Assembly: GCA_030653355.1 (NCBI GenBank)
Contig: JAURZN010000095.1
Location: forward strand, 34,899-98,898
Reading direction: 5' to 3'
From: Gallionella sp.
GTDB taxonomy: Bacteria > Pseudomonadota > Gammaproteobacteria > Burkholderiales > Gallionellaceae
DNA: 64,000 nt
Shown: positions 22,875 through 54,428 of the stretch, one piece after another
Numbering within the stretch: position 1 is the stretch's first letter
How the letters are laid out: each line of letters opens with the position of its first letter
Made by a program: the position numbers and the translations under genes
Notes under the pieces: generated by a model
What the model was told of the DNA's origin: nothing
Seen by the model: the letters and a program-made list of their open reading frames with translations, nothing else
The model's database searches: none

Positions 22875-23503
22875 TGACTTGGCAGGAATACCAAGAAGCC
22901 GTCGCCGTGCTCTATGAGCAAACCGATGGATTCGGAAATGTCAGCAGGAATGTCATGGTGCCGGACAAGATTACCGGTCAGCCACGGCAAATTGACGTGC
23001 TGATCGAAATCAAGGCCAAGGGACACGCCTTAAGGATGATCGTCGATGCCAAGTTCCATGCCGTCCCCATTGATGTGAGGGATGTCGAATCAGTTCTTGC
23101 GCTCGCAGATGCAGTTGGCGCAAATAAAGCCATCGTCGTCGCGGCGAATGGCTGGACTGAGCCTGCCAAGAAAAAAGCAGAACATGTCGGATGCTCTCTC
23201 GAACTGCTCTCAGTCGAAGAGGCCTTGGATCTGATCGTTCCAGACAAATGGAAGATGTGCCCTTCCTGCGGTGTAGATTGCATCGTGCTTGATCAAGAAG
23301 GGGCGGTAACGTTCGAAGGAGGTTCTTGGTTCTGGTGGCTTGCCGGTCAGTGTCGCGGATGTAAAAACGCGCGCATCCACTGCCAAGACTGCGGAGTGAA
23401 GGCGTATATTGATCTCGGTGAATCAATGGTCTGCGGATGCGGGCACCGATGGTCTAGCGCCCACGAAGGTATCAAGATTGCATTTTTCGAGGAGCAATCT
23501 TAA
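22871..23503 (+). CDS. Mrr-like restriction endonuclease with C-terminal Zn-ribbons
   Basis: RQIDVLIEIKAKGHALRMIVDAKFHAVPIDVRDV (PD-(D/E)xK-like core), then CPSCGVDC..CRGCKNARIHCQDCG..CGCGHRW. Confidence 0.78.
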   Translation: MMTWQEYQEAVAVLYEQTDGFGNVSRNVMVPDKITGQPRQIDVLIEIKAKGHALRMIVDAKFHAVPIDVRDVESVLALADAVGANKAIVVAANGWTEPAKKKAEHVGCSLELLSVEEALDLIVPDKWKMCPSCGVDCIVLDQEGAVTFEGGSWFWWLAGQCRGCKNARIHCQDCGVKAYIDLGESMVCGCGHRWSSAHEGIKIAFFEEQS

Positions 23504-27600: not shown

Positions 27601-27713
27601 TCGCACTACAGCAGGCCAGACAGGTGCCAGAGTTCGCACAGGAAGCCGTCTCACAATTCTTGAAAGAGTTTGAAATGATCAAGGCAGGAAGTATCGGAGC
27701 TTTTGATGACTAG
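27597..27713 (+). CDS. 38-aa micro-ORF overlapping the drmMI stop (ATGA)
   Basis: ATG at 27597 overlaps TGA 27598-27600; reads MIALQQARQVPEFAQEAVSQFLKEFEMIKAGSIGAFDD then TAG. Below the size threshold of the ORF track. Confidence 0.4.
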   Translation: MIALQQARQVPEFAQEAVSQFLKEFEMIKAGSIGAFDD

Positions 27714-27722
27714 GAAAACCAC

Positions 27723-29678: not shown

Positions 29679-29687
29679 GGAACGCAA

Positions 29688-32600: not shown

Positions 32601-33671
32601 CGTGTCTATACGGCCTTCCTGACAGCGGCGCAGGAGTTGTTCGACCACTTTGGTGAGCCTGCTGATCCGTACATGACCATGGTCGGCTACTTCAATTCCC
32701 TGCGTGAATTGGGCGGAATGAAGCGATTGGCCGAGGATGACGTGCAAACGCGTTCCTACCGCGTGCAGATGAGCATGGTCGAGCGGCCCGCACTTGCACA
32801 ACGCAGCATCAGCAACATTCGAGAACTTACATCGCGGGTATCGAGCCAGGATATTCCCAAGTACCTCGACAACCTAGAAGTGAAATTCAAGTCTGAGTTC
32901 GATACCGCAACCGGAAAATATGTGACCCGCTGGCAGGAAGGTGACACGCGCGCCATCGATGTGGTGCTGGCGACCAACATGCTATCCGTGGGCGTCGACG
33001 TGAATCGGCTCGGCCTGATGGCAGTGAACGGCCAACCCAAGGGGACAGCTGAATATATTCAAGCCACTAGTCGCGTTGGGCGTTCCTTCCCAGGTTTGGT
33101 CTGCACGGTACTGACATGGGCCAGACCGCGCGATCTGTCGCATTACGAAACCTTCGAACATTACCACGCCACGTTCTACAAACACGTAGAGGCGCAATCA
33201 GTAACGCCATTCTCTCCACGAGCAATGGATCGTGGGTTGACGGGCGCAATGCTGAGTTTGATGCGGCTTGAAAACGATGCCTTCAGTCCGAACGAAGGTG
33301 CTGGGCAACTGAGCACATCCAACCAAGCCGAAATCATGGATGCCATCAAGGTATTGGCGACTCGCGCGGGCAATGTCGCTGAAGACAACTCGCGCAAACA
33401 GTTGGCTGAGACTGAATTGAAAGAACGTGCCGACGAATGGGCGAAAGAAGTCAGCAAAGGCGGACGGATATTGGCGTATGAGAAACGCGGCCCCGAAAAA
33501 GACAAGACCGTCGCATTGATCAAGTCGCCGGGGCTTCAAGCTTGGGACAACTGGACCGTTCCGATGTCGATGCGGGAAGTCGAGCCTGGAGTGCGCCTGA
33601 TTATGAATACGAGCCATATCACGGACGATCACGATTGGAAGCCTCGCCCCGAAACGAAGGATGAGGATTGA
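29688..33671 (+). CDS. drmA: DrmA-like helicase (DISARM)
   Basis: ADLLWFPTGGGKTEAYLG (Walker A), LIIQDEFHLISGPLGT (DExH-like), ATNMLSVGVDVNRLGLMAVNGQPKGTAEYIQATSRVGRS (motifs V/VI). Confidence 0.9.
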   Translation: MARTTNAWIAIDNGSDPRLARYTLTLNGQKSLYQAIEDDDWVLVVNPQTEITRVGRVLRIRSDLETTTIYFDRMLLVDPAVSIELTSLTPPSSGSVGRIQWTDFLESLPKALHKTIAEIPTIKDQAYIRELLQLAVMDDLLGPAGGPHERIVDMGVRDRYLVGKLAPREAAQGGIEGLDGPLTNDDAEEPAEAKAPGRHEPGAEFGTATGRVEPESDSSDEIDAASNQSLVPSSLGMTFCVDGDADRIEIEARWGRYERSDEHEIFRTRKNKETGAEVQTKAKVWQRIPCGGKIVLPLTEGVIPHQAPDSEFPEVRVQGSIRAKNANGDRLVTLFLVNAQEEPDTNRDTAWVFQPELIVRSEQDAAKRAIFRRRPVLDADGMDPEREALEMIYRNRVEFAVGHGVAVHAETADDVTLATEVHTTVMPQYEVQVTETPGLDPSDRPAMREMVSSGLLDMQRLATLEIDPLVDALSMLTKDYAAWINEQRARVGAEVTGYDTQSQQAMDRCQEIHTRLQQGIDTLKSNEKALAAFRFANRAMATQRVRSQYALAMRRGEDVTIDKFDVLKNRSWRPFQLAFLLLSIPSLADPSHPDRVEPVEAYADLLWFPTGGGKTEAYLGVAAFTMAIRRMQGNLGGYDSSRGLAVIMRYTLRLLTLQQFQRATALICAMEVLRREALDKGDKSLGTEPFTIGLWVGNKVTPGTTEDSHRAIEDVRNPGKYNAGAASPAQLTSCPWCGSEVAPGRDVEVDKGSGRTFVYCGDKKGRCDFSKGKSSKQPHPGIPVLVVDEEIYHRPPTMMIATVDKFAMMAWRGQVRTLFGRVGQECERHGLLWQGADCNGNHQAGKGLPSSKVKIVNPIRPPDLIIQDEFHLISGPLGTMVGLYETAVDELCGWTLDGKTVKPKIIASTATVRKAKEQVNNVFMRRVSVFPPHGLDVEDNFFSVQRPIADKPGRRYLGVCSPGSSRPAMLIRVYTAFLTAAQELFDHFGEPADPYMTMVGYFNSLRELGGMKRLAEDDVQTRSYRVQMSMVERPALAQRSISNIRELTSRVSSQDIPKYLDNLEVKFKSEFDTATGKYVTRWQEGDTRAIDVVLATNMLSVGVDVNRLGLMAVNGQPKGTAEYIQATSRVGRSFPGLVCTVLTWARPRDLSHYETFEHYHATFYKHVEAQSVTPFSPRAMDRGLTGAMLSLMRLENDAFSPNEGAGQLSTSNQAEIMDAIKVLATRAGNVAEDNSRKQLAETELKERADEWAKEVSKGGRILAYEKRGPEKDKTVALIKSPGLQAWDNWTVPMSMREVEPGVRLIMNTSHITDDHDWKPRPETKDED

Positions 33672-35533
33672 ACATGATCATAAATAATAAGACTCCAGTC
33701 GGAGAAGTACGCCCAAGCCAATTGCTCTGGACTTATGGTCCGGGCGCTTTAATTGATCTGCCAAGCCTATCCGTGGTGACGCTCGGCATCGACAGGTGGG
33801 AAAAAGACCGCTGCCAGCCGCTTCAAGAGGCGCGGCTGCTGGCTGCCGTCAGAAAGGTTTTGGGGGCGCAGGTCGAAAACCTGCGGATGCCGCCATTCCA
33901 GAAGAGTGAGCTCGTCGACGTCTGGTCAGCAGAGGCCAATATCGGTGTGCCCGTACGACCGTTTCCGCGCTGGATGCGCTGCGTGAAATGCGGCCTCCTG
34001 TCGCCCTTTGATGCTGGTCTGTTCGAAATCAAGGAGAACCGTTTCAGGCCGGAGAGAACCCGCTTTGTTCACAAAGGCTGCCGTGGCTCCAAAGGGGACC
34101 AGCCAGCCAAGGACGCAGATGCCGTCCCCGCACGTTTCCTGCTGGCCTGTCGCGATGGTCACCTCGACGATTTTCCCTGGCACTACTTCGTTCACGGCGG
34201 CAACAGTTCGTGCAAGGGAACGTTGCGTTTCTTCGAGAGCGGCGCGTCACTGCAAACAGAAAACCTGTGGGTAAAGTGTGATGCCTGTGGGGCGTCGAGA
34301 AGCATGGCCCATGCGTTTGGCAAGGCAGGCAAAGAAAATCTACCGGCTTGCCGGGGGCGCCACCCGCATCTGGATCACTTCGATAACGAATGTGACGAGG
34401 AAGCTCGTGCAGTTTTGCTGGGCGCCACGAATAGCTGGTTCCCAATCACGCTCTCGGCGCTCGCGATTCCTCAGGCCAATGACCCACTCAGTCAACTGAT
34501 TCAGGATGGCTGGGAGTTCTTCGAAGAACTCGAATCCGAAGCCGAAGTATCGGTAACAGTAAAGACCTTGAAGAAGACTGGCGCACTGCCGGGAATCGAC
34601 AAATACCCTTCGCCTGCGATCTGGGCTGCCATCGAAGCACGCCGAACCGGTGGCGGACAAGATGTCGTAGGAGAAGCAGATATCAAGGGACCCGAATGGG
34701 ATGTGCTGACCGAGGCCAACCCGCCCACTGATTACCCCCATTTCATGAGCAAGAAGGTCGGCACGCCACCGGGGTTCGGCGGCCATATCAGTCGAGTCCT
34801 TCTCCTCGAGCGATTGCGTGAGGTGAATGCTCTGCTGGGCTTCACCCGGGTCGAAGCACCCGAAGAATCAGGCAATCCCGATGAGCGACCACAAATGGCC
34901 AATCTCTCTCGTAGTAAACCAGATTGGGTGCCAGCAAATCAGGTTCATGGCGAAGGGATCTTCGTCCAGTTTGATGAGGCGGCGCTCATCAAGTGGGAGG
35001 CCTTGGATGGTGTCAAGAAGGTCGATCAGATTCTCCGTGGTGGTCACAGGGGATGGCGCAATTCGCGTCATCTCGACCCGAATGAGGGCTACCCCGGAAT
35101 TCGGTATGCAATGTTGCACACGCTTTCTCATCTACTGATTCGCGAGCTGGCGCTGGAATGCGGATACAACGCTGCAAGCATTCGTGAGCGTATCTATGCC
35201 GACACATCGGGCGATACCCCACAGGCTGGCATCCTCATCTACACCGCAGCAGCAGATTCTGATGGCACGTTGGGAGGTCTCGTCGATCTTGGCAAGCCAG
35301 AGAATCTCGGTCGATTGCTAGAACAGGCACTGAACCGTTCGAAGATTTGCTCCTCGGACCCACTCTGCTCAGAGCATGATCCAGAAAAGGATCGCTCATT
35401 ACATGGGGCTGCTTGCCATGCATGCTCCCTAGTGGCGGAGACTTCGTGCGAGCGCGGCAATCGCTATCTGGATCGATCGCTGCTCGTACCAACACTCGAA
35501 CGCGCCGACGCAGCATTCTTCAGGGGCTTCTGA
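33668..35533 (+). CDS. drmB: DrmB-like DUF1998 protein (DISARM)
   Basis: LHTLSHLLIRELALECGYNAASIRERIY..., CHACSLVAETSCERGNRYLDRSLL; 4-nt overlap with drmA. Confidence 0.9.
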   Translation: MNMIINNKTPVGEVRPSQLLWTYGPGALIDLPSLSVVTLGIDRWEKDRCQPLQEARLLAAVRKVLGAQVENLRMPPFQKSELVDVWSAEANIGVPVRPFPRWMRCVKCGLLSPFDAGLFEIKENRFRPERTRFVHKGCRGSKGDQPAKDADAVPARFLLACRDGHLDDFPWHYFVHGGNSSCKGTLRFFESGASLQTENLWVKCDACGASRSMAHAFGKAGKENLPACRGRHPHLDHFDNECDEEARAVLLGATNSWFPITLSALAIPQANDPLSQLIQDGWEFFEELESEAEVSVTVKTLKKTGALPGIDKYPSPAIWAAIEARRTGGGQDVVGEADIKGPEWDVLTEANPPTDYPHFMSKKVGTPPGFGGHISRVLLLERLREVNALLGFTRVEAPEESGNPDERPQMANLSRSKPDWVPANQVHGEGIFVQFDEAALIKWEALDGVKKVDQILRGGHRGWRNSRHLDPNEGYPGIRYAMLHTLSHLLIRELALECGYNAASIRERIYADTSGDTPQAGILIYTAAADSDGTLGGLVDLGKPENLGRLLEQALNRSKICSSDPLCSEHDPEKDRSLHGAACHACSLVAETSCERGNRYLDRSLLVPTLERADAAFFRGF

Positions 35534-35534
35534 C

Positions 35535-36296
35535 ATGGACAAGCTCTTGGATGCTGTTGCAGCCGTGGTCTGTCTGGTATCGCCTGAAAAGGTCCGAGCC
35601 ATCGCTGCCCGCGTTCGTCGAACCGAAGCCAACAAGGCGGCCAACGCACTGACGAACATGGTTGGGACGCCCATTGCCTCAGCGGTAGTCGAACAGCTCA
35701 TCGACGCATGGCGCAACACAACAGTCAGCTCAGATGAGGTTGCATCAATGCTTCTCGCGGCCAGTCATGTCTTCATAAAGGCATCCACCGAACAATCTAC
35801 CGAACTCGTATGGACAGGACCGACGACTCCGTCCGTCTCTGCTCGTCGAACCGAGCAGGCACTATTACAAGTAATCAATACGGCGAAATCGACCCTATTC
35901 ATCACAAGTTTCGTCGCCTACGACGTGTCGGGCATCGTAAAAGCTCTCAATGAGGCCAGCAACCGAGGTGTGAGCATCTCTATGCTCCTTGAGTCCTCAA
36001 TGGATCACGGCGGAAGTATCAACATCGATGTGATCGGAAAAATGAAGACACTGGTTCCACCAGCTAAACTCTTTGCCTGGCAAGATAAGACCGAACCATT
36101 TATTGATGGTCGGGTGCATGCAAAGGTCGCTGTTGCTGATGGCGCGGTGTGTTTCATCACGAGCGCGAATCTGACAGGCCACGCAATGGAGAAAAATATG
36201 GAAGCCGGAGTGCTCATCACCGGAGGGCACATCCCCAGATTGCTCGACCAGCATCTGTGTTCCTTGATAGACACGAAAGTGATCTCGCCAGTCTGA
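35535..36296 (+). CDS. drmC: DrmC-like phospholipase D-family protein (DISARM)
   Basis: HxKx4D motif in VHAKVAVADGAVCFITSANLTGHAMEKNMEAGVLI; immediately after drmB. Confidence 0.9.
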   Translation: MDKLLDAVAAVVCLVSPEKVRAIAARVRRTEANKAANALTNMVGTPIASAVVEQLIDAWRNTTVSSDEVASMLLAASHVFIKASTEQSTELVWTGPTTPSVSARRTEQALLQVINTAKSTLFITSFVAYDVSGIVKALNEASNRGVSISMLLESSMDHGGSINIDVIGKMKTLVPPAKLFAWQDKTEPFIDGRVHAKVAVADGAVCFITSANLTGHAMEKNMEAGVLITGGHIPRLLDQHLCSLIDTKVISPV

Positions 36297-36300
36297 ATTA

Positions 36301-37182
36301 TCACTGATCCAACGATGTCGTCTCGACGATAAGCTCGAACTGTTCCAACACTTCCGGCCGACGCAGTTTGATGAATCTGGCGACCGGCTTGTTGTCCAGC
36401 AACTTGGCCAGGTAACCTCTTGCCAAGACTAGGTTAAGTACATCCTCCGCATAGGTTTGCTCGACCAATTTGTATTGCCCCTGCAGATTTGACATTTCTC
36501 GCTCCATCCGCGCCATCTGCTCTTGCGTTACACCGGTCAGTTTCTGCGTCTTCTTGCCATCCACCAACATCTCGGCCGGTGTCGCCACGAGTAATGCTTC
36601 GGCATACATCACCGTGATGTTATTTGCCGAAACCATGAGCTCGACACACTCCACTTGACGAGTAGGTTTCATTTTTCGGATCACGCGCGATATTTCTGCA
36701 GAAAACTGCCGGTCCTTCAACAGTTCTGCCGCTTCAGGACAGATGCCTTCCAGCAAGTTCATTTTTTTGACGATATGACTGACGTCAACATTGAGTGCTT
36801 TGGCCAGACGCTCCATCGACAGCCCACGCTCAATGGCTCGGCGGATCATGAAATGTTCCTGAATGGTCGAGAGTCGGTTGATGCGGCTGTTGTAGGTATA
36901 GGCTTCATCATCGGTGGCAACCAGACACGGAGCTTCTTCGTAGCCCAATTCCTTGAGAACGATCATCCGCACATGGCCATCAAGCAGCAAATGTTGGCCG
37001 GAGGTTTTATTCGCCGCAGTGATAGATAAAGGCTCAATCAACCCGACATCCGCGATGGAGGCACGGATCTGCTTGAACTTAGTTGAGCCGATAAGGCCTG
37101 TGGGGGTTTTGCGCGACGGCAAAATCAACTCCATAGATACAGAAATCGTTTCCGGCACGAAGCCGAGCGATACCTTACTCAT
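36301..37182 (-). CDS. ParB/RepB-like partition protein (RepB C-terminal-type)
   Basis: ParB N-terminal-like SIADVGLIEPLSITAANKTSGQHLLLDGHVRMIVLKELG, HTH region LAKALNVDVSHIVKKMNLL; 4-nt overlap with next gene. Confidence 0.8.
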   Translation of the reverse strand: MSKVSLGFVPETISVSMELILPSRKTPTGLIGSTKFKQIRASIADVGLIEPLSITAANKTSGQHLLLDGHVRMIVLKELGYEEAPCLVATDDEAYTYNSRINRLSTIQEHFMIRRAIERGLSMERLAKALNVDVSHIVKKMNLLEGICPEAAELLKDRQFSAEISRVIRKMKPTRQVECVELMVSANNITVMYAEALLVATPAEMLVDGKKTQKLTGVTQEQMARMEREMSNLQGQYKLVEQTYAEDVLNLVLARGYLAKLLDNKPVARFIKLRRPEVLEQFELIVETTSLDQ

Positions 37183-38081
37183 TGCGTACTCCCGCCAGAT
37201 CGGACACGCTCGTCAAGATATTCGGGTAGGGTATCCAGTCCCTCGGCGCGAAGCAGATTAATAAAATTCTCATCCGCAAAAAACTGGCGTAGTGCGCTAA
37301 CGACGAATAACAAACGCTGCTGGGCAAACTCTGCTTTCTTGACGGTCATTTTTTGCCGTTCGACTTCTCGCTGATAAGTTCGAACAAGACTGGAGGTGGA
37401 AACATCCGGTGCTTTGCGTGATGTAGATCGTCCGAGCGACCGACCCAAGTTTTGCCGCCGCTCAATAACCTTACGTGCCTCCATTAACTGCCGTCCGCGC
37501 AACTTTCCGGATTCATAGGCTTCCTGTAGTGCCGCCTGCACGGCCTTGTCATCGTCACCGGCACCGACGATACTCAGCGCGGCATTGAGCGGAACGCGCC
37601 CCTTCTCGACAGCAATCAGCAAACGTTCTTCACCATGCTGGAGCAAGGTAAGAATTCCGACGACATACTGGTTGGTAAGTCCTGTCTTTGTGGCGATGTC
37701 CTTGGGACTGTAACCACGGTCACGAAGTTGCTTGATGCTGGCCAAAATTTCAAGTGGACGACATTGTCGACGAGCAATGTTTTCAGACAAGCTCATAATA
37801 AAGGCATCTTCGTCGCTGACATCAACCACTAATGCCGGAATGGTAACTTGGTTCAGCGAACGAAAAGCATTGAGACGCCCCTCGCCGCAAACCAGAATAT
37901 AGCGTTCCATTTTATCGTCTCCGGTGCGCGGAGTTACAGTGATGGGCTTCTTCAAACCGATGGCTTGGATGTTGCCAACGATTTCGTCAAAAACCCGCTT
38001 ATTGCGTTCACGTGGATTCAGCACGTCGATCAAACCGACGGGGATCATTCTGACCTCACTGGTGCGATGTTTGGCTGTCAT
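37179..38081 (-). CDS. ParB/Spo0J-like N-terminal domain protein
   Basis: IPVGLIDVLNPRERNKRVFDEIVGNIQAIGLKKPITVTPR...YILVCGEGRLNAFRSL...SENIARR..., HTH ATKTGLTNQYVVGILTLL. Confidence 0.86.
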   Translation of the reverse strand: MTAKHRTSEVRMIPVGLIDVLNPRERNKRVFDEIVGNIQAIGLKKPITVTPRTGDDKMERYILVCGEGRLNAFRSLNQVTIPALVVDVSDEDAFIMSLSENIARRQCRPLEILASIKQLRDRGYSPKDIATKTGLTNQYVVGILTLLQHGEERLLIAVEKGRVPLNAALSIVGAGDDDKAVQAALQEAYESGKLRGRQLMEARKVIERRQNLGRSLGRSTSRKAPDVSTSSLVRTYQREVERQKMTVKKAEFAQQRLLFVVSALRQFFADENFINLLRAEGLDTLPEYLDERVRSGGSTQ

Positions 38082-39688
38082 GCGGCCCTCCTGAGTCGTG
38101 CTCGTGCGGTCATACCGTACAGATAATCCAGCGTCTCAAATCGAAAGCAATCAAACTCTATAGCGTTCTGGTCGGCTAGGCTGATGCGTGGTTGTCCGAA
38201 ATCCAGTCGTGGTAGCAGGTAGTAGTCCAACACTGATTTATTGGCATGATCGAGACGCACGGCAACAGTGATGTCGGGGCACAAGCTGGTGTCGAATCTG
38301 ATCTTCCAACGATGACTACCACTGTCGTAGCTCTGGCAGCGGGCAAGTACCAGCGATACGCTGAATTCCTGATTGACGCGCAATAAATCCGTAGCCGGAT
38401 CACGCACAACCGAACCGCCTATTGCTGCAATTTGCGCCTCTGTTTGCGCAACAATCTCGGGATGCAATTGACGCAGGAAACGATTGACCTCCAGATAACG
38501 ATAGTCATGGTCTGGAGTAAAACCCACCATCTGATAGGCGCGGATTAGACTGCCGAAGCGATTGACATAGATGGAAGTGGAAGGCATGCCTTCCGTTTCA
38601 TTGATGATCAATCCGGATAGGAGCCCCCTGTTCTGAAAGAGATTGCGCAGGTGCTCTATCAACTCCTCATCTGTGTAGCGCCGAGTACGAGCCCGAATGA
38701 TGCCCTGCGCGATGTAGAACAGTTCAGGATGGACAATGGGATCAAACGCACCCTCCTTCTTGACCCACATGTCGGGTGTGTTTTCCACGCGCAGTTTTTT
38801 GAGCTTGAATGAGGTCCGGTTGTAAATGTTGTTGCCGATATATTTTTCATTGGTCAGCACCTCATGCACGGTAGCGCGTGTCCATTCGCGGTCAAGGTCG
38901 GTTCTCACTCTCATGTCGTTGAGTCTAGCAGCGATGGCCGACTCCACCAGCCCCTCATCAATGAACCAACGATAGATCGAATTGACGGTTTTCACTTCGT
39001 CATCTGGGCCTGGCATCAGAATGACCCGATCGGTCTGCAAACTCTTGTGCTCGCCCCGCGTCAGTTGCGCCTTGATTGAGCCATTCTGATCAAGAAGGAC
39101 ACGGCGCAGCCCATAGCCAGCCGGACCGCCTTGCCGGAAACCCAATTCGATCAGTCGGCATTGTCCGGCGAACACCTTGGCGGACAATTCACGACTGTAC
39201 TCACCGGCCATGGCACGTTTGACACCCTTGACGATGGTGGATACCGGCGAGCCGTCATTCTCGAACTGCTCGGCGCAGTAGGCGACCTGAATACCGGCTC
39301 GTCGGCAGCGGTACTCGTAATATGCGCTTTCATCGGCATCTTGAAATCTGCCCCAGCGGCTGACGTCGTAGACAAGAATGATCGTGAAGTCTACCGATCC
39401 GCTTTCGACATCCTTGAGCAACTGCTGGAGCGATGCGCGCCCCTCCATCCGCAGACCGCTTTTACCGGCATCGGCGTAGGTACGGACAATCTCGATGCCG
39501 CGTCGGGCAGCATACTCACGAATTTTGTCAGCCTGATTTTCAGTGGAATACTGCTGATGCTCGGTCGACATCCGAACATATTCCACCGCCCGTCTCAAGG
39601 TAGGTGCCTCTACCCCGTCATCACTTGGTTCGCCTTGTTGCATAGTATCGATCGCCCCAGTTGGTTTGCAAAATCGGCTCTCGATCAC
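38078..39688 (-). CDS. Large serine recombinase
   Basis: AVEYVRMSTEHQQYSTENQADKIREYAARRGIEIVRTYADAGKSG (catalytic Ser context), VYDVSRWGRFQDADESAYYEYRCRRAGI, recombinase domain TRATVHEVLTNEKYIGNNIYNR. Confidence 0.93.
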   Translation of the reverse strand: MIESRFCKPTGAIDTMQQGEPSDDGVEAPTLRRAVEYVRMSTEHQQYSTENQADKIREYAARRGIEIVRTYADAGKSGLRMEGRASLQQLLKDVESGSVDFTIILVYDVSRWGRFQDADESAYYEYRCRRAGIQVAYCAEQFENDGSPVSTIVKGVKRAMAGEYSRELSAKVFAGQCRLIELGFRQGGPAGYGLRRVLLDQNGSIKAQLTRGEHKSLQTDRVILMPGPDDEVKTVNSIYRWFIDEGLVESAIAARLNDMRVRTDLDREWTRATVHEVLTNEKYIGNNIYNRTSFKLKKLRVENTPDMWVKKEGAFDPIVHPELFYIAQGIIRARTRRYTDEELIEHLRNLFQNRGLLSGLIINETEGMPSTSIYVNRFGSLIRAYQMVGFTPDHDYRYLEVNRFLRQLHPEIVAQTEAQIAAIGGSVVRDPATDLLRVNQEFSVSLVLARCQSYDSGSHRWKIRFDTSLCPDITVAVRLDHANKSVLDYYLLPRLDFGQPRISLADQNAIEFDCFRFETLDYLYGMTARARLRRAA

Positions 39689-39804
39689 TCGTCGTTGCTG
39701 CCATCAAGGCAAGCAGGAAGGTGGAAATTTGAATTCCATGCAGGAGGTGCAGAGAGCGCGCATGGGCAATATGGTATGCGGCTCTGTCCCGCTTTCCGAA
39801 CACG

Positions 39805-40260
39805 TCATCTCTTTGCAATATCGACATCTGGCTTGCACTCGCTGGAATGCACCGTAATCTCTACAGTCCATACGTCCATCTTTGCAATTCCGTCTTCCGT
39901 GACCAAACGGAGGTGATAAATCCCCGATGGCAACGGAATCACTGGGGTTGACGCGTCCATCTTTGCAATTGGGGCAACCATGGCCTTGGCATTGCGCTCC
40001 TGTTGCAAGGCGCGATTGCGTTCGACATACTTTGGGTGAGACGCGCGGTATTCGCGCCAATAGTCCGGGTTACGCTGACTCCATGCCTGCTGCGCCCGCG
40101 CTTGATTGTCTTGATAATCCGGATCGCTTTTCAGCCTATCATGTTGCCATTGTCGTTTTCGTTCGCGCTGACAACTTGGTGCTGAACAATAGGTTTGCTG
40201 CGGGGATTGTGGACGCAGCGTGAACGACCGGCCACAGGCTAGACACTGCTTGTACTGCAT
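39805..40260 (-). CDS. Hypothetical protein with N-terminal Zn-finger-like motif
   Basis: CLACGRSF..QQTYCSAPSCQRERKRQWQ; co-oriented upstream of the recombinase. Confidence 0.6.
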   Translation of the reverse strand: MQYKQCLACGRSFTLRPQSPQQTYCSAPSCQRERKRQWQHDRLKSDPDYQDNQARAQQAWSQRNPDYWREYRASHPKYVERNRALQQERNAKAMVAPIAKMDASTPVIPLPSGIYHLRLVTEDGIAKMDVWTVEITVHSSECKPDVDIAKR

Positions 40261-40418
40261 AGGCTACTCCATACAAAATATGGAGCCTGCACGATGATTC
40301 TATGCGCCTGATAAGTTATGGGAAAATATAACCTCGGCTTTATGCCAGAAAACAGAAACAACAAGCAGTTCCGCAATTTCGCTCATCACGAAATTAGCTC
40401 TGACTGTAGAATAGAAAA

Positions 40419-40438
40419 AGCCCACTCGAAAGTGGGCT
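40419..40438. terminator. Stem-loop agcccact-cgaa-agtgggct with T-run on the minus strand
   Basis: Perfect 8-bp stem; minus-strand readout GGGCTTTTTCTATTC resembles a Rho-independent terminator. Confidence 0.5.
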
Positions 40439-40517
40439 TCTCTAAAACTGTCGTCCGTCCTCGGGGGGAGGCTTGCGCCAACAACTCCCGTGGCTAGTGC
40501 GGCAACTATAAGGCTTA

Positions 40518-41192
40518 ATGACGATGACGTCAACAAGAATACAAGAAATCAAGAATGCCCTGTCGCATGCACGGATGGGCACCTATGAGAACGCGACCGA
40601 TAGTGCTGGCAATCGCATTAGCACTGAACAGGCATTGAGTTTATACGCGTGGAATGCCCAAGTTTCAGCCGCACTCCTTGCTCCGTTACACATATGCGAG
40701 GTTGTAATTAGAAATGCTGTTTCTGCCGCCCTTGAGGCTCAATATGGTAGCAGATGGCCATGGTCACCCGGTTTTGAACAAAGCCTCCCAAGCCCTCATC
40801 AAGGCTACAACCCACGCCGAGATTTACAGGATGCTCGACGCTCGGCCAACACCACCGGAAAGGTTATCCCAGAACTAAAATTCGCTTTCTGGCAAAGCAT
40901 GTTTACAAGTCGACATGATAGTCGCTTGTGGAACAATTACCTCACTCAAGTATTTCCCAATTTGCCGACGGGGCAGACAGTCCAACAGTCCCGATTAGAC
41001 ATTTATCACGAGCTTGAGAACCTTCGAAAACTTAGGAACAGAATCGCTCACCACGAGCCAATATTCGGCAGAAATTTGCCAGAGGACTTTAATAAGATCA
41101 ATGATCTGATCACGATCAGATGTGCAATTACAGCTGCATGGATGCAACAAAACCAACAGGCTTCAAGTTTTATTAGTTCGCGCCCGCTTTAG
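40518..41192 (+). CDS. Abi-like protein with HEPN-type motif
   Basis: HICEVVIRNAVSAALEAQYGSRWPW...LENLRKLRNRIAHHEPIFGRNL; RNRIAHH fits the HEPN R-x(4-6)-H consensus. Confidence 0.82.
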   Translation: MTMTSTRIQEIKNALSHARMGTYENATDSAGNRISTEQALSLYAWNAQVSAALLAPLHICEVVIRNAVSAALEAQYGSRWPWSPGFEQSLPSPHQGYNPRRDLQDARRSANTTGKVIPELKFAFWQSMFTSRHDSRLWNNYLTQVFPNLPTGQTVQQSRLDIYHELENLRKLRNRIAHHEPIFGRNLPEDFNKINDLITIRCAITAAWMQQNQQASSFISSRPL

Positions 41193-41198
41193 CCTCCC

Positions 41199-41235
41199 GG
41201 TTCAATTCCCAAACGCGCAATTGAACCCGCGTCCG
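41199..41235 (-). other. tmRNA-3'-end-like / att-like remnant (degenerate)
   Basis: Contains aattgaacccgcgtccg (41219-41235), identical to the T-arm-derived segment at 41536-41552, plus inverted ggttcaattccc at 41199-41210. Confidence 0.35.
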
Positions 41236-41387
41236 CTGCCACTCTACCGGCAACGAAATAACCGGCGGAATTCCTGATAAGATGCTTGCCGAATAAGGGA
41301 TTTTGGTAGATTTTCGCAGCTGCCCGCAATGGCTCGCAGGCGTTGGGATAACTTAAATTGACTCGGGGTGCGCCCCCACCACCAATA

Positions 41388-41425
41388 CGATAAAAAAGCC
41401 ACTGAATCTAGTGGCTTTTTTATCG
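41388..41425. terminator. Bidirectional stem-loop terminator
   Basis: 16-bp perfect inverted repeat cgataaaaaagccact-gaatct-agtggcttttttatcg. Confidence 0.8.
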
Positions 41426-41525
41426 ACTTACCAAAATACAGCGTCATTGAATCCGCAACATAAACTGACGCAGACAGAAAAACAGCGGAAAACTCAAGCA
41501 ACGCATGCGAACTTCAGTTCGATTG

Positions 41526-41580
41526 AGACGGCGGGAATTGAACCCGCGTCCGTCACCGCGCTACGGTAGACGCAGGTAGC
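41526..41580 (-). ncRNA. Partial tmRNA 3'-end-like sequence (T-arm plus flank, no CCA)
   Basis: Minus strand reads ...GGACGCGGGTTCAATTCCCGCCGTCTC: perfect GCGGG-TTCAATT-CCCGC T-arm typical of tmRNA, then AATCG instead of CACCA. Confidence 0.4.
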
Positions 41581-41686
41581 CAGCTATATTTGCATCTCAA
41601 GGACAGTGATGTCTGGAGTCTGCTCCTGATATATTTTCCACCCAATAGCTTCTTCAACCCAAATAATCCATTAGAATTTTTGACTC

Positions 41687-42560
41687 TCATTCATGGCCGA
41701 AACGATGCAAGCCAGGGTCGATTGCTACTTGAGCCCAAAGGCCATCAAACCACTGCCATCGTCGCCGCGCGACGGCTAATCTCAGCACATTTATTTCGTT
41801 GCCGCCATCCCAGAATGCACCGACCGCAAATACTTTGTGATGTAGTGTCGCCAGCGTGTGATGTACGCCTGATTTCATCACCGCCTGACGGAACAAACTC
41901 ATTAAATTATAGGCCAGCATCGCCATGCCGAGCGCAGCCTCAGTTGCCCAGAATTCCGTCATATTGAAGCAATCCAAACCGAAGTCTGCCTTGAGTTACT
42001 TGATCCGATTCTCACAATCTGCACGTCCTCGATACAAGCGCCATATCTGCAAGGCAGGCAACTCCAATGAGGTCACTATCGCCCCGTAACGCCAACCCTG
42101 AATATCCGGATCATCGGCAAATAAGCGCAAGGTTTTTCCGGGTGCCTGTGCGCGAACCTTGATGCTTTGGCGCACTACCACGATCCGTCGTGCTTCTTTC
42201 CAGCCATGCGCCTGATAGCTGATTTCGCCCATTTTCAGGCCAGAATCAACGTTCCAGAACGTGCACTGACTGACCATTGCTTGCTGCAATGCCTGGGTTA
42301 ATCGCGCACTGATGATGTAGGCAATACCTTTGTCATGCAGAAAATTCATAATGGATTCATCGAATAAGCCACTGTCTGCGCGTAACAGGCCGACTGTCTT
42401 GTTGCCCAAATGACGTAACGTTGCTTCAAGAAAAGCCCGGATGTTGTTCGCGCTATGCGTATTGCCCGGACGCAGCCAGAAATTGGCCACCATGCGTGAT
42501 TCGGCAATGAAGGCCAACAAAGGGTGATGCGAATTTTGTCCGACGACCTGGTTTTGGTTT
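41687..42560 (-). pseudogene. IS1380-type transposase remnant (N-terminal truncation, probable frameshift and in-frame stop)
   Basis: ...SHHPLLAFIAESRMVANFWLRPGNTHSANNIRAFLEATLRHLGNKTVGLLRADSGLFDESIMNFL...YRGRADCENRIK*LKADFGLDCFNMTEFWATEAALGMAMLAYNLMSLFRQAV in one frame, broken by TAA at 41996-41998. Confidence 0.75.
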
Positions 42561-42725
42561 TTTTACACCAGCACGAAGATTATCAACGTAGGATGCCAAA
42601 TCTTGAATGTGGATTTGACGCCGCGATCCGCTTAATACAGTTGGGATGGGAAATTTTTACGGAAAATTCTGGGATAAGAAGGGATACCACGGCATACCGC
42701 AGAATCCTAACTCATTGATTACACT

Positions 42726-42810
42726 TGGTGCGAAAGGAGAGACTCGAACTCTCACGCCGCGAGGCGCTGGAACCTAAATCCAGTGCGTCTACCAATTCCG
42801 CCACTTTCGC
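42726..42810 (-). tRNA. tRNA-Leu (anticodon UAG)
   Basis: GCGAAAGTGGCGGAATTGGTAGACGCACTGGATTTAGGTTCCAGCGCCTCGCGGCGTGAGAGTTCGAGTCTCTCCTTTCGCACCA; 7-bp acceptor stem, long variable arm, CCA encoded. Confidence 0.97.
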
Positions 42811-42966: not shown

Positions 42967-45900
42967 TCAATTTTCAGTCTTTTCAGACTTGAGCTGCCGT
43001 GATAGCTTCAATCTGCCCAGGCTGACCGAGGGTTCATCAGTCTGCGCCTCTTGCAATACGGGTAGCTGCTTTACCGAATCCACTGGTTTCGGCAGCTGCG
43101 CGCTCACTGCGCTATTGCGCGCATTAAAAAACGACCAGGAATAACCGAACAATGCCGCGACCGAGATCAACCCGGCCATTTTTGCTGCCTTAACCCACTG
43201 CCGGTTTCTGCGCAGCCGCGCTTGCAGTTGGTAAGGCGCCAATTCAACACGCGTTTGTTCAACATGCACGCGCAGCCGATCATTTTCCTGCTCATCCTGC
43301 TCAGACAGCTGTTGTGCGAGCAGAGTGGCCTGCCTAGCCAGCTTCGCCTTTTCCTGCGCTTCCACGGCAGCTATCCGTTCGGCAGAAATATGCCTTGCGA
43401 CGGCCGCATTTTCTTCAGCTTCCGCAGCGAGTCGTTGTTCTGTTTCGTCCAGCAACTGCTGCTCAGTCAGCAATCTGGCCTGTTGCTGTTCCAGCCATTT
43501 TTGCTGCTCCTGCTGCTGTTGTGCCGCGAGCTTTTCACTTTGTTCGGCGATAGCGGTCAGTTCAGCCGCCGCCTGAAGCTCAAGCTGTTCGGCTTGCAGC
43601 TTCGCCTGTTCTGCCAGCAGGATGCGTTGCTGTTGATCCATGCGTTGCGCACTGACTTCGGCGCTATCAAGTGCTATCGCTTCTATTTGTCGCTGAATCT
43701 CGTTCCACTTAGCATCGGCCTGCTGCTGCGCTGCCTGCTCCGCCGCAATTTTTTCCTGCTCTGCATCAATTAAGCGTTGCTCTGCTTCAATTCTATCCTG
43801 TCTGGATTTCGCAGAATTTTCCGCTATCGTCAGCTTGAAGGACAAGGCCTCTTGCAGGGCGCATTCCCGCTCATGCAGTTGCCTGGCCTCTCCGGCCAAC
43901 TGATTTTCCATGCGCTCGCGTTCCACGAGCGCCAGCCTGGCGGCCTCGGCGATTTGCAGTCGCTGCTCCGTTGCGGCGACTGCCAACTCCTCAAGACGGA
44001 TTTGTTCGCACTCAGCTTCCGCTGCACGGCGTTGCAGCGCCTCATGCTCAGCGGCCAATTGTCTGGCTTGCTCGATTACCGCCAGTTTTTCCTGCTCTGC
44101 TTCGTATGCCTGCTGTTCCGCTGTGAGTCGTGCCTGCAGAACGACATCGGTTTGCGCTTCAAGTGCCGCGCGTTGCTCAAGCTGCACGCATATATCGCGT
44201 TCATGCTCCAGAGATTGTCGCTCCTGCTCCAGCAACTGCAACGCCAACTGTTCTCGCTCTACGGCCACCCGCCCGGCGGCCTCGGCGATTTGCACGCGCT
44301 GCTGCGTTGCGGCCACGGTCGCTTCGTTGCTGCGAATATTCGCCTGTTCGGTTTCAACAAGCGTGCGTTGCGCCTCTGCATGCTCACTGGCCATCCGCTG
44401 CAGCTGTTGCTCTGCGGCTATTTTTTCCAGTTCAGCCTCGCAGCTCTGTTGCTCGGCTTCGATGCGCGCCTGAGTCGCCAGTCCGGCTTCTGCTGCGAGC
44501 GATTGTTTACAGGCTATCTTTTCCTGTAATTCGCGTTCCAGCTCGAACTGTCTGGCTGCTTGTCCGGCCAGTTCACTTTCCATCTCAGCACGCGCCAGCA
44601 CAGCCTCTCTGGCCACTTCAGTCATGTGCACACGTTGTTGCAGAGCAATAATCGCCGATTCATCACGGCGTATATTTTCCCGCTCGGCTTCAGCAAGCTG
44701 GCGTTGTGCTTCTTCATACTCCTGAGCCAGACCCAGCGCCTGTTGCTCCGCCGCCATTTTCTCCTGCTCGGCCTCGCATGCCTGCTGTTCCTCTGCGAGT
44801 CGCGCCTGCACGGCAGCTTTCGTTTCTGCCTCGAGTGCGCAACGTTGATCCTGCTGTACCTTCAATTCATACTCAACTGCCAGCCGCTGTTGCTCCTGCT
44901 CCACCTGATACAATGCCATCTGCTGGCGTTCCCCGGCAACCAGCCTGGCGGCCTCGGCAATCTGTTCACGCTGCCGTGTTGCCGCGATGGCCAATTCCTC
45001 CAGACGAGTTCGTTCCTGTTCCACGGCAATCGCCTGCTGCTGCGCCTCGGCATGTTCCTGAGCCAGGCGCAGCGCTTGTTGCTCAGCGGCTATTTTCTCC
45101 TGTTCGAGCGCACAAGCCTGTTGTTCCGCCGCGATGCGTGCCTGCACGGCGGCCACCGCCTCCGCTTCGAGTACGGCGCGTTGTTCTAGCTGCGCCTGAA
45201 ACTCACGCTCGTGCGCCAGACGTTGCTGCTCTAGCGCAGTCAGCCGCTGCGCCTCTTGTTCGCGCTCCAATGCGGCCTGCCTGGCTTCATGAGCAACACG
45301 TTCGAGCTGGCCTGCTTCAGCGATAGCCGCTTCATCACTGCGCATCCTGGCCTGCGCGGCTTCCGCGAGCTGACGTTGCGCGGCCTCATGCGCAACTGCC
45401 ATTTGCATGGCCTGTTGTTCTGCTGCAATTTTCTCCTGTTCAGCCTCGCTCGCCTGTTGTTCCGCCGCGATGCGTGCCTGCAACGCGGCTGCCGCCTCAG
45501 CTTCGAGTACGGCGCGTTGTTCTAGCTGCGCCTGCAACTCGCGCTCATGCGCCAGACGTTGCTGCTCTTGCGCGGTCAGCCGCAAAGCCATTTTCTCGCG
45601 TTCCACGGCAGTTTGTCTGGCTTCTTCAGCCACTTGTTCAAGCTGATTGATTGCAGCAATGGCCGATTCACCCCGGCGGATTCGAGCCTGTTCGACATCC
45701 ATAAACTGGTGCTGCGCTTTTTCCAGTTCCTCAGCCAACTGCTGCGCCCGTTGTTCGGCGGCAATTTTTTCCTGCGCTGCCAGCTGCGCCTGCTGTTCGG
45801 CGGCAATACGCAATTGAAGTACTGCATCTACCTCTGCTTCAGTGGCGCTGCGTTGCAGCAATTGGTCCTGCAATTCACGCTCATGCGCCAGACGTTGATG

Positions 45901-48549
45901 AGCTAGTCCGGCCAGCTGGTCTTCCATACGCTTGCGTTCTTCAGCTGCCTGTCTGGCCAGCTCGGCAGCCTGCACGCGCTGCTGCTTCGCGGCTATCGCC
46001 GACTCGGTACTGCGAATTTTTTCCTGCTCAGCCTCAATGACCTGGCGCTGCGCTTCCTCAAGTTCAAACGCAGCACGCAAAGCCTGCTGCTCTACCGCGA
46101 GTCGCGCCTGCACGGCAACCGCCGCCTCAGCTTCACGCGCCAGGCGTTGCGCCAGTTGTTGCTGCAATTCTCGCTCTTGCTCCAGCCCCAGCTGCTCCTG
46201 CTGCGCCAATTGCAAAGCCATCTGCTCGCGTTCCACGGCCGCCTGACTGAGCGCTGCACTCGCCTCCGCCTGTTTACGCGCCGCAACGACGGCCATTGCC
46301 TCGCTGCGGGTGCGCATCTGCTCCGTCTCGGCCGCCTTGCGCGCTTCGGCAACCCGCTGCATAGCCATATTTTCAGCACGTTGCAAAGCCTGCTCGTGTT
46401 CCAGTCTGGCCTCGTTCATTTGCTTTTGCAAAACGGCAGTCGCGAGTGCCTCGGCGCGCAGGTATTGCTCTTGCTGTTTGAGCAACTGACTTTCCGCATC
46501 GGCATGGTGTTTGGCGATATTCAAAGCGCGCAACGCCACTTGTTCCTTCTCCTGCGCGTCCCGAATCGCCTGCTGATTGTGCTGCAAGGCTGTTTCAGCA
46601 ATCGCTTTCGCACGGGATTCCGTTTCGATGCGCTGATTGTCCGATTCGATGGCCAGCAATTCTGCCGCCATTCTGGCTTCTATTTCTGCGATGGCGCGCG
46701 CTTCTGCGGCCAACTGTTCCCGGGCTGCCTGCTGCGCTGCGCCTGCAAGCTCCGCCCGCCGCAACGCTTGCTGGTTAACCTGCTGCAAAGCCGATGTATT
46801 TTGCTGTGCGGCATCTATCAGCGCCTGTTCAGCCTGCAAGTTGGCTGCAATCAACGACTGCTCTTGCGCCAGTGCTTCAGCACGCAATTGGGCTGATTGC
46901 AATGCCGCGTTCTGCAGGCGGAATTTTTCCTGCAAAGCCTGCTCTGCCAGCTGTTCCGCCTGTTCGCGCTGCTGCTCGATTTTCAGCAACTGCTGTTCAA
47001 GCAGGATATTTTCCTCTGCCGCCGCCTGCGCCAGTTTGGCTGCGGCTATACGTTCATTTGCAACGGTGAGCGCCTGCACTTCGGCCTGCAATTGCAACTC
47101 CAGCTCTTGCGCCGACTGCATTTCCGCCTCGGCGCGTTGTTGCGCATACATCCGCTGATCCCGCCCGGTTGCCAGCTTTTGCGCTGCGGCCTGTACAGCC
47201 AGATTCTCGCTGGCCAGCCGTTCATCCGCATCTTGTGTCGCCTGCATCAACAACGCATGCGCTTGCTCATGCTGCTCGGCTGCGCTTTGGTCAGCCTCGG
47301 CTTTAGCCCGCAATAACGCGCTTACTTCCTGCTCGATTCTGGTTTTACGTTCTGCCTCGGCGCTGGCAGCGGCCTCGGCTTCAGCGCGCTGTTTCGCCGC
47401 CTGATAAGCCTGTTGCTCATGCTGTGTGCGTTTTTCAGCATCGGCGCGCGCCTGCTCGTCAGCCAAACGGCGCTGATTGGCCGTTTTGAGCGCGGATTGC
47501 TCCGCTGCGGCTCTCTCTTCAGCAGCCTGTTCGGCTTCGCGATCCGCTTGCAGCCTGGCTTCAATTTCCGCAAGCGCCTGCGATTCGGCACGCGCTCTGG
47601 CCATGACTGCTTCTGCTGCAAGCTGCTCGGCATCCAGCTTTGCTTTAAGCTGCTCGACCGTTTCCTGCTCCTGCCGGACTTTTTCCTGCACTACGCGTGC
47701 AATAGCCTGATCCGTAGAAATTTTTTGCTGCGCAAGCCGGGTGGCCTGTTGCTCCAGTCTGGCGCGATTTTCCGCTGCCTGAACCGCGTTGCGCTCAGCC
47801 TTGATACGCTGTTTGCTTTGCTCTGCCTCATGCGCTTCTTTGTCGGCTTTTTCTCCGGCAAGACGTAATTCCTCCGCCTCGTTTTCAACACGCAAACATG
47901 CCGCTTCACGCAATTGCACTTCGATTTGCAACTTTTCTTCAGTCTGGGTATGCAGCAATTGCTCTGCGGCCATGCGTTCAGCAACGGCTTGATCCGCCTG
48001 CGCCTGAAACTGATCTATTTCGAGCCGAATAGCGCGCATTTCAGCCTCAGCGCGTTGTTGTGCCGCCTGTTCCGCCTGACTTTGCTGTGCAATCAATAGC
48101 TGTAGCTCGCGCTCAGCCTTGACCTTGTCATCCGCCGCCGCACGGGCGGTTTGTTCGGCTTGCAAACGCAGCGTCAGCTCTTCCTGCGCCATGCGTTCGG
48201 CCCGCAGCTTCGCTTTACTTTCTTCCTCCAGCCGCATGGCGATCAACAATTTCGCCCGCAATTCCTGCGTCAGTTGTTTCTCGACCTCCAGCTTGGTTTG
48301 GGCGACTTCAGAGAGCCGCATTTCATCCTGACACTTGGCCTCAAGCTGAGCAATCAGTTCCATTTCAGTGCGCGCACGCGCCTGAGCTATGGCACGACCA
48401 TGCGCTTCGGCACGGGCCCGCGCCTGCGCGGAAAACCCGGCTTCCATCTCGGCTTCCAGATGCGCGCGCGCTTCCTGTATAGCCTGAGATTCAGCGATAA
48501 TTTCTTCGCTATCGTTACCAACCAAACGAATTTTGGGGGGAGTCGCCAT
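42967..48549 (-). CDS. Giant (1860 aa) Ala/Glu/Gln-rich coiled-coil protein with C-terminal TM segment
   Basis: Uninterrupted ORF of heptad-like A/E/Q sequence; C-term basic RRNRQWVKAAK then MAGLISVAALFGYSWSFF hydrophobic helix and ~60-aa tail. Confidence 0.85.
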   Translation of the reverse strand: MATPPKIRLVGNDSEEIIAESQAIQEARAHLEAEMEAGFSAQARARAEAHGRAIAQARARTEMELIAQLEAKCQDEMRLSEVAQTKLEVEKQLTQELRAKLLIAMRLEEESKAKLRAERMAQEELTLRLQAEQTARAAADDKVKAERELQLLIAQQSQAEQAAQQRAEAEMRAIRLEIDQFQAQADQAVAERMAAEQLLHTQTEEKLQIEVQLREAACLRVENEAEELRLAGEKADKEAHEAEQSKQRIKAERNAVQAAENRARLEQQATRLAQQKISTDQAIARVVQEKVRQEQETVEQLKAKLDAEQLAAEAVMARARAESQALAEIEARLQADREAEQAAEERAAAEQSALKTANQRRLADEQARADAEKRTQHEQQAYQAAKQRAEAEAAASAEAERKTRIEQEVSALLRAKAEADQSAAEQHEQAHALLMQATQDADERLASENLAVQAAAQKLATGRDQRMYAQQRAEAEMQSAQELELQLQAEVQALTVANERIAAAKLAQAAAEENILLEQQLLKIEQQREQAEQLAEQALQEKFRLQNAALQSAQLRAEALAQEQSLIAANLQAEQALIDAAQQNTSALQQVNQQALRRAELAGAAQQAAREQLAAEARAIAEIEARMAAELLAIESDNQRIETESRAKAIAETALQHNQQAIRDAQEKEQVALRALNIAKHHADAESQLLKQQEQYLRAEALATAVLQKQMNEARLEHEQALQRAENMAMQRVAEARKAAETEQMRTRSEAMAVVAARKQAEASAALSQAAVEREQMALQLAQQEQLGLEQERELQQQLAQRLAREAEAAVAVQARLAVEQQALRAAFELEEAQRQVIEAEQEKIRSTESAIAAKQQRVQAAELARQAAEERKRMEDQLAGLAHQRLAHERELQDQLLQRSATEAEVDAVLQLRIAAEQQAQLAAQEKIAAEQRAQQLAEELEKAQHQFMDVEQARIRRGESAIAAINQLEQVAEEARQTAVEREKMALRLTAQEQQRLAHERELQAQLEQRAVLEAEAAAALQARIAAEQQASEAEQEKIAAEQQAMQMAVAHEAAQRQLAEAAQARMRSDEAAIAEAGQLERVAHEARQAALEREQEAQRLTALEQQRLAHEREFQAQLEQRAVLEAEAVAAVQARIAAEQQACALEQEKIAAEQQALRLAQEHAEAQQQAIAVEQERTRLEELAIAATRQREQIAEAARLVAGERQQMALYQVEQEQQRLAVEYELKVQQDQRCALEAETKAAVQARLAEEQQACEAEQEKMAAEQQALGLAQEYEEAQRQLAEAERENIRRDESAIIALQQRVHMTEVAREAVLARAEMESELAGQAARQFELERELQEKIACKQSLAAEAGLATQARIEAEQQSCEAELEKIAAEQQLQRMASEHAEAQRTLVETEQANIRSNEATVAATQQRVQIAEAAGRVAVEREQLALQLLEQERQSLEHERDICVQLEQRAALEAQTDVVLQARLTAEQQAYEAEQEKLAVIEQARQLAAEHEALQRRAAEAECEQIRLEELAVAATEQRLQIAEAARLALVERERMENQLAGEARQLHERECALQEALSFKLTIAENSAKSRQDRIEAEQRLIDAEQEKIAAEQAAQQQADAKWNEIQRQIEAIALDSAEVSAQRMDQQQRILLAEQAKLQAEQLELQAAAELTAIAEQSEKLAAQQQQEQQKWLEQQQARLLTEQQLLDETEQRLAAEAEENAAVARHISAERIAAVEAQEKAKLARQATLLAQQLSEQDEQENDRLRVHVEQTRVELAPYQLQARLRRNRQWVKAAKMAGLISVAALFGYSWSFFNARNSAVSAQLPKPVDSVKQLPVLQEAQTDEPSVSLGRLKLSRQLKSEKTEN
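43876..46185 (-). repeat. In-gene tandem array: 1 x 98-aa plus 6 x 112-aa units
   Basis: Units start at 46185 (98 aa), 45891, 45555, 45219, 44883, 44547 and 44211 (minus strand), each beginning L-x-x-E-[RY]-[ED] or similar, with a conserved AEQQ..EQEKIAAEQQ core. Confidence 0.85.
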
Positions 48550-54377: not shown

Positions 54378-54424
54378 TCGGGCGTAGCCCGACCTACAAA
54401 CAACTAACGACTAACGACTAACGA
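54378..54424. repeat. Small palindrome tcgggcgtagcccga followed by 3 x 7-bp tandem ctaacga
   Basis: Direct reading of 54378-54392 and 54404-54424. Confidence 0.7.
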
Positions 54425-54428
54425 CTAG

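Follow-up and report, generated by a model that had tools for sequence, protein, structure and literature searches.

In Caulobacter, TipN is a membrane-anchored coiled coil tied to polarity and to the placement of the flagellum, and its membrane anchor is N-terminal. To our knowledge, the bacterial coiled-coil-rich proteins crescentin, FilP, Scy and AglZ generally lack a C-terminal membrane anchor. TipN has been named as a polar landmark, and HubP has been described as holding cytoplasmic partners at a fixed place of the envelope; HubP has a LysM domain in the periplasm, acidic D/E repeats and, at its C-terminus, a TPR region (PMC8789113). HubP and FimV proteins of Vibrio, Shewanella and Pseudomonas are single-pass inner-membrane proteins whose cytoplasmic part is very large and rich in repeats, and HubP has ties with polar flagella and with chemotaxis (PMC8789113). 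Outside this group, the arms of SMC and Rad50 proteins change length while preserving register and have lengths near multiples of ~100 residues (PMC5344682), and giantin and other golgins combine a long coil with a C-terminal membrane helix, a short non-coil N-terminal end and a use as tethers (PMC5082667).

Our study concerns a gene in a stretch of 64,000 nucleotides from Gallionella sp. (assembly GCA_030653355.1, contig JAURZN010000095.1), hereafter the window, whose 1860-aa product appears to share with HubP and FimV the single inner-membrane pass and the very large, repeat-rich cytoplasmic part. However, the predicted topology is reversed, with the cytoplasmic coil at the N-terminal side, the membrane helix close to the C-terminus and only a short tail after it. 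No LysM, FimV or TPR match was found in the window protein with Pfam and NCBIfam, and its C-terminus consists of the membrane helix and a 51-aa tail. It also differs from TipN, with which it has no sequence match, since its membrane helix is found not at the N-terminus but 51 aa short of the C-terminus. The register-preserving length changes recall SMC and Rad50 arms, but the protein has neither an ATPase head nor a hinge (no Pfam or NCBIfam match) and gives no sign of an antiparallel fold-back. The likeness to giantin and golgins, which are eukaryotic, is one of architecture only, with no homology shown; crescentin, FilP, Scy and AglZ are likewise large cytoplasmic coiled coils, and none of their families matches the window protein.

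The coil protein founds a family that had not been described before, in which iron-oxidising Gallionellaceae encode very long helical rods anchored in the membrane. The absence of any evident known family, which the earlier note on this DNA had remarked from the sequence alone, was borne out by profile searches against Pfam (E up to 10), NCBIfam (0.001) and PDB sequence families, none of which matched. With a profile of the N-terminal region, we identified relatives in 90 of 159 Gallionellaceae genomes, covering 10 of 15 genera; among 299 genomes sampled from the order, the profile gave 8 matches, every one of them inside Gallionellaceae and none among the ~290 genomes outside it, and 13 near-complete genomes lacking the coil gene gave no match even at E=1. 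It is a new and taxonomically narrow family of a known sort: long membrane-anchored coiled coils, with an unusual evolution of length. Family members measure ~600 to ~2,180 aa; a single-contig genome of 3,162,471 bp encodes a 2182-aa form and a single-contig genome of 3,003,656 bp an 864-aa form.

Across the 10 genera the architecture is constant and consists of a short N-terminal motif, a predicted helix of ~600-2,100 residues, one membrane helix and an outer tail of ~55 residues. The N-terminal motif is present in 89 of 91 homologues, and the tail motif (L/F)(K/Q)(L/M)(S/A)x(E/D/Q)L in 66 of 69 readable homologue tails, against a mean of 0.4 in shuffled tails. The protein had been described as tail-anchored-like with one transmembrane helix. 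The single C-proximal helix stands, being detected by hydropathy in 70 of 91 homologues, but the tail-anchored label, in its strict sense, does not, given the conserved tail of ~51 aa behind the helix: 51 residues follow it in the window protein and a median of 57 in the family, where a tail-anchored protein would have at most ~30. The mean net charge of the family is +3.8 before the membrane helix and 0 after it, so by the positive-inside rule the N-terminus would lie inside and the C-terminus outside, which suggests a cytoplasmic coil and a periplasmic tail. A membrane helix could not be recognised in about 20 homologues, of which some are cut by contig ends and some are short; the anchor may therefore be dispensable in some species. 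One genome (G021, L053:6697-11961) carries two coil-family genes in tandem, one full and one a 679-aa copy without membrane helix, which score equally over the N-terminal 200 aa. In another locus (L079), a run of the pentapeptide NEQSM stands at the C-terminal end of the coil and at the contig end, and possibly reflects slippage or assembly trouble.

Table 1. Features of the coil gene, in window coordinates.
Feature	Position	Strand	Evidence
Whole coding sequence, 1860 aa	42967..48549	(-)	ATG start; omega 0.04-0.21 vs two orthologues
aa 1-65: ~12-aa disordered start with conserved (K/I)RLVxNDxEE motif, then conserved coil start (AESQAIQEARA...SAQARARAEAHARA)	48355..48549	(-)	Invariant columns in 13 diverse homologues; omega 0.04 (aa 1-120); AlphaFold pLDDT ~47 (aa 1-10)
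aa 66-788: conserved N-terminal coil, common to short homologues	46186..48354	(-)	
aa 221-234: predicted helix break (putative hinge)	47848..47889	(-)	AlphaFold pLDDT ~44, no helix
Array unit 1, 98 aa (aa 789-886)	45892..46185	(-)	
Array unit 2, 112 aa (starts aa 887)	45556..45891	(-)	
Array unit 3, 112 aa (starts aa 999); duplicated once more in sister species L015	45220..45555	(-)	
Array unit 4, 112 aa (starts aa 1111)	44884..45219	(-)	
Array unit 5, 112 aa (starts aa 1223)	44548..44883	(-)	
Array unit 6, 112 aa (starts aa 1335)	44212..44547	(-)	
Array unit 7, 112 aa (starts aa 1447; array ends aa 1558)	43876..44211	(-)	
Post-array coil, aa 1559-1780; predicted break ~aa 1626-1631 (43657-43674)	43210..43875	(-)	AlphaFold
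Membrane helix, ~aa 1791-1809, with basic stretch (RLRRNRQWVKAAK) before it	43123..43179	(-)	Hydropathy
C-terminal tail, 51 aa, predicted periplasmic, disordered	42970..43122	(-)	
Tail motif LKLSRQL	42991..43011	(-)	Family form (L/F)(K/Q)(L/M)(S/A)x(E/D/Q)L

The reported composition of the array, one unit of 98 aa followed by six of 112 aa within a single open reading frame, was reproduced, and the seven unit starts (the upper coordinates of units 1 to 7 in Table 1) proved exact to the base and all in frame. The protein is rich in A (22.6%), E (15.9%), Q (15.4%), L (10.4%) and R (8.9%). In a lag analysis, its self-identity peaks at lags of 112, 224, 336 and 448, identity at lag 112 within the array being 0.48 against ~0.2 at unrelated multiples of 7, and TRF reports a period of 336 bp in the gene. 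Compared with one another, the units share 42-64% identity at the protein level and 55-68% at the DNA level, which makes the repeat an old one, neither recent nor made by the assembly. An assembly artefact was ruled out: arrays are also present in a single-contig genome (G043, L063), and the units differ by 32-45% in DNA. The assembly G000 has 224 contigs.

The coil ORF is a real gene under purifying selection, with full-length orthologues. Against two of these, omega is 0.20 and 0.15 over aa 1-886, 0.21 in the array, 0.12-0.18 in the post-array coil and 0.04 in the first 120 residues. Each array unit is 0.78-0.94 identical to the unit of the same number in the next species, whereas non-matching units reach 0.38-0.67 between species, a recent extra copy aside; the units are thus individually conserved, without homogenisation. 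The extra copy belongs to the sister species (L015), whose protein of 1972 aa is exactly 112 aa longer than the window protein and has unit 3 in duplicate, the extra copy being 0.93 identical.

Single-chain AlphaFold models of the two ends are mostly helical. In the first 400 residues, helix is predicted at aa 13-220 and 235-399 (~93%); the last 414 residues are modelled as two helices (model residues 2-179 and 186-352, ~84% helical), the second of which enters the membrane helix, and only the tail beyond the membrane and a short break are non-helical. The helices have pLDDT mostly of 80-95, with low-confidence breaks at ~aa 221-234 and ~aa 1626-1631 and a disordered tail. Disorder in place of coil had been named beforehand as the outcome that would speak against the coil; AlphaFold gave helix. 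Over 724 windows of the family the hydrophobic period is 3.52 (power 2.2 against 1.0 in shuffled sequence; a period of 3.60 gives 1.1), near the 3.5 of a left-handed, heptad coiled coil. Along the coil, most groups show high similarity when the lag is a multiple of 14 but values around or below zero when it is an odd multiple of 7, whereas genus g31 is without this contrast; the true unit of sequence is therefore the double heptad, of 14 residues and not 7. Consequently, the description of the protein as almost entirely heptad coil holds for the mostly helical prediction but not for the basic period.

The earlier note had proposed a continuous coil of ~1600 residues, which is too strong a term, since distant stretches of the coil are mutually out of register and two breaks are predicted; going by these models, the coil is probably discontinuous. 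With 0.148 nm for each residue, the greatest length of the window protein would be ~260 nm, and the predicted breaks make a single straight rod unlikely.

The claim that duplications preserve the phase of the coil was sustained by a survey of homologues. In nine long homologues, all spacings of the array are multiples of 7, mostly 112 and also 98, 91 and 84. Of the distinct indel classes in the whole family, 19 of 33 within the coil have lengths divisible by 7, the corresponding figure for the tails being 4 of 56 (p=3e-7). Copy number ranges from one unit-like match (L059, L064) to 10 units (L063, L080), and the 10-unit version occurs in a closed 3.16-Mb Gallionella genome. Exact duplications of 112 aa are also present in G109/G123, G113 and G138, and a 98/112 pair in G096, at different places of the coil; relatives without the insert align with a clean gap, of 112 in three lineages and of 98 in G096. 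The three 112-aa events are counted as independent because no two of them share a position in the coil and none lies where the Gallionella array does. If such events were free to take any multiple of 14 between 28 and 210, we estimate the chance that four of five fall on 112 at ~0.002, and at ~0.08 when all ten large events are counted. The 112 rule is not absolute, since shorter homologues contain duplications of 134, 137, 47 and 29 aa; the expectation that lengths in homologues are heptad multiples thus held for the arrays and failed for these. A strict quantisation of total length was ruled out, as lengths and indels include 14, 28, 29, 33, 47, 61, 134 and 137, and an ancient 112-aa repeat over the whole coil is unsupported: in homologues without duplications, lag 112 stands barely above other multiples of 14 (z 0.8-1.2). 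In one protein of genus g31 (L122, ~aa 576-680) there are several tandem copies of a 29-residue unit, and 29 is not a multiple of 7.

A clue to function is the distribution of the gene with respect to flagella. We scored FliG in the same 159 genomes, and FlhF and NifH within the genus; FliG is read here as a marker of motile life as a whole, chemotaxis and polarity included, and not of the motor alone. With flagella defined as FliG or FlhF, 43 of the 76 genomes of the genus have both coil gene and flagella, 25 have neither, 2 have the coil gene only and 6 flagella only (Fisher p=2.6e-12). The corresponding counts for genomes at least 95% complete are 20, 13, 1 and 3 (p=1.9e-6), and the control trait nifH showed no association with the coil gene in the genus (p=0.75). 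When coil gene and flagella were followed on a tree of glnD from 73 genomes, they changed jointly in ~6.2 of 9 independent pairs and in opposite directions in 0.3, with a marginal sign test (median p 0.03); coil and flagellum were lost together ~6-7 independent times. A single deletion is unlikely to explain this co-loss, because the coil gene lies outside the flagellar cluster, ~870 kb from fliG in the 3,003,656-bp genome. Nor is genome reduction the cause, since the genomes without the gene include large complete ones of 3.2-3.3 Mb (G023, G077, G079, G088). In G007 and G076 the usual upstream neighbour lies ~34 and ~12 bp from glnD, the coil gene having been cleanly removed with its neighbours intact. 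A FliG-negative genome (G067, L168:158-646) contains a decayed remnant of the coil gene, of ~164 aa at 45% identity.

The co-loss with the flagellum suggests that the protein serves swimming cells in a structural capacity. FliG occurs without the coil protein in two entire genera (g25, g29) and in six species of the genus, so the flagellum does not need it, and the two genera in particular indicate an accessory of the flagellated state instead of a flagellar component. One exception in the other direction, a 99% complete genome (G087), encodes a 2160-aa form with no FliG and no FlhF above the cut-off. Both S. lithotrophicus ES-1 and G. capsiferriformans ES-2 have been described as sometimes motile and as having flagellar genes (PMC3770913). 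The earlier note had suggested a spacer, cytoskeletal or polar-organising role, and we infer from the flagellar co-loss that a motility-linked scaffold is the best supported among these ideas.

Our preferred reading, to which we give a probability of roughly 0.45, is that the protein is a cytoplasmic scaffold or tether, anchored in the inner membrane and serving the flagellated cell, analogous to HubP and TipN but unrelated to them. On this view, Gallionellaceae would possess a family of their own with a single pass through the inner membrane, of which the window protein is the long form found in Gallionella. The very long A/E/Q/R-rich coiled-coil rod of such a protein would reach into the cytoplasm while its short, motif-bearing tail would lie in the periplasm. 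The rod presumably oligomerises and would act in flagellated cells as a scaffold or tether anchored to the envelope: the periplasmic motif and the membrane helix would fix it at an envelope site, and the conserved N-terminal end, extending 100-300 nm into the cell, would hold a cytoplasmic partner. Oligomerisation, topology, localisation, partner and a direct link to flagellum or chemotaxis are all putative elements of this proposal. The array may serve as a length-setting module that grows or shrinks by whole coil steps, so that both ends of the rod would keep their register.

A more specific version of this scaffold is doubtful: that the length of a motility-linked, membrane-anchored rod is selected in steps of nearly one superhelical turn. 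Exact 112-aa gains would have arisen at least four independent times (others being of 98) at different places, because only whole-turn insertions would leave the two ends, or lateral binding sites that recur along the rod, in the same azimuthal relation. Coiled coils have a superhelical period of ~99 residues, and SMC arms vary in steps of ~100 aa (PMC5344682); that this period is the reason for the steps of 112 and 98 is speculation.

The same recurrent steps of 112 and 98 aa, together with the length of the coil and its 14-residue sequence period, could be read as those of a cytoskeletal or shape element, in which rods lying side by side form a membrane-bound filament, like crescentin or FilP, that sets curvature. 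The steps would then be an axial stagger comparable to the charge repeats of myosin, and it counts for such a filament that changes of 14 residues alter the packing of myosin rods (discussed in PMC5344682). Yet a strict stagger could not tolerate the 3-fold variation in length and the indels of 14, 28, 47, 61, 134 and 137, the co-loss with the flagellum is left unexplained, and the PDB gave no solved coiled coil that matched in sequence; we therefore consider the filament unlikely. If instead the rod resembled an SMC arm in controlling length for mechanical or signalling purposes, insertions would be accepted only when they amount to about one superhelical turn and keep the relative rotation of the ends. 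Both 98 and 112 are near the ~99-residue period and the ~100-aa steps of SMC arms (PMC5344682), and exact 112-aa insertions occurred independently at several sites, but other indel lengths are present and the protein has no head domain whose orientation would matter, which makes this reading improbable.

The gene neighbourhood bears on a further alternative, a tether from the membrane to the nucleoid or to a ParA/MinD protein for segregation or positioning. A ParA/BcsQ-like ATPase lies directly downstream of the coil gene in some loci, including L016, L017 and L081, and in one genus the locus stands downstream of an smc-like gene and guaB-guaA. However, the ParA-like neighbour is limited to ~4 loci, and no constant operon partner was found among coil loci: the common neighbours, which are uninformative on segregation, are guaA, a CBS/PAS/GGDEF/EAL protein (the commonest upstream), glnD (convergent, downstream) and map. 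Segregation is moreover essential, yet the gene is missing from many complete genomes, and we judge such a tether improbable. A low-information A/E/Q-rich repeat of little specific function, whose length drifts by slippage with only helical register kept, would fit the high turnover, the taxonomic restriction and the several losses but is very improbable and largely refuted by omega (0.12-0.21, strong purifying selection along the whole length), as well as opposed by unit-by-unit orthology, conserved end motifs and the non-random flagellar co-loss. A function in the twisted stalk was ruled out by distribution, sfz being limited to nine Gallionella and Ferriphaselus (PMC10734462) and the coil family being present in 10 genera.

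These results bring to light an undescribed family in iron oxidisers of fresh water. Its link with the flagellated way of life can be tested, and among its members is a bacterial protein of 2182 aa with a very long predicted coil. The family's recurrent, independent 112-residue steps constitute a natural experiment on what governs the length of a coiled-coil rod (register, the 14-residue motif and perhaps the superhelical turn), a question otherwise approached through engineered SMC arms.

The window holds other features of note besides the coil gene. A DISARM-type defence island occupies 18191-36296 and comprises a DrmMII-like methylase, a DrmD helicase, a DrmMI/type IIG enzyme, a type II restriction enzyme, DrmA, DrmB and DrmC, so that methylases of the MI and MII types occur together in one cluster. 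Beside it, at 36301-42810, are two RepB/ParB-like proteins, a large serine recombinase and an Abi_2/HEPN-like gene with a weak PD-T4-5 match; this stretch ends near the tRNA-Leu that flanks the coil gene and looks like an integrated island. On the other side of the coil gene, a short intergenic tandem repeat of four copies of AACGACT lies at 54399-54427.
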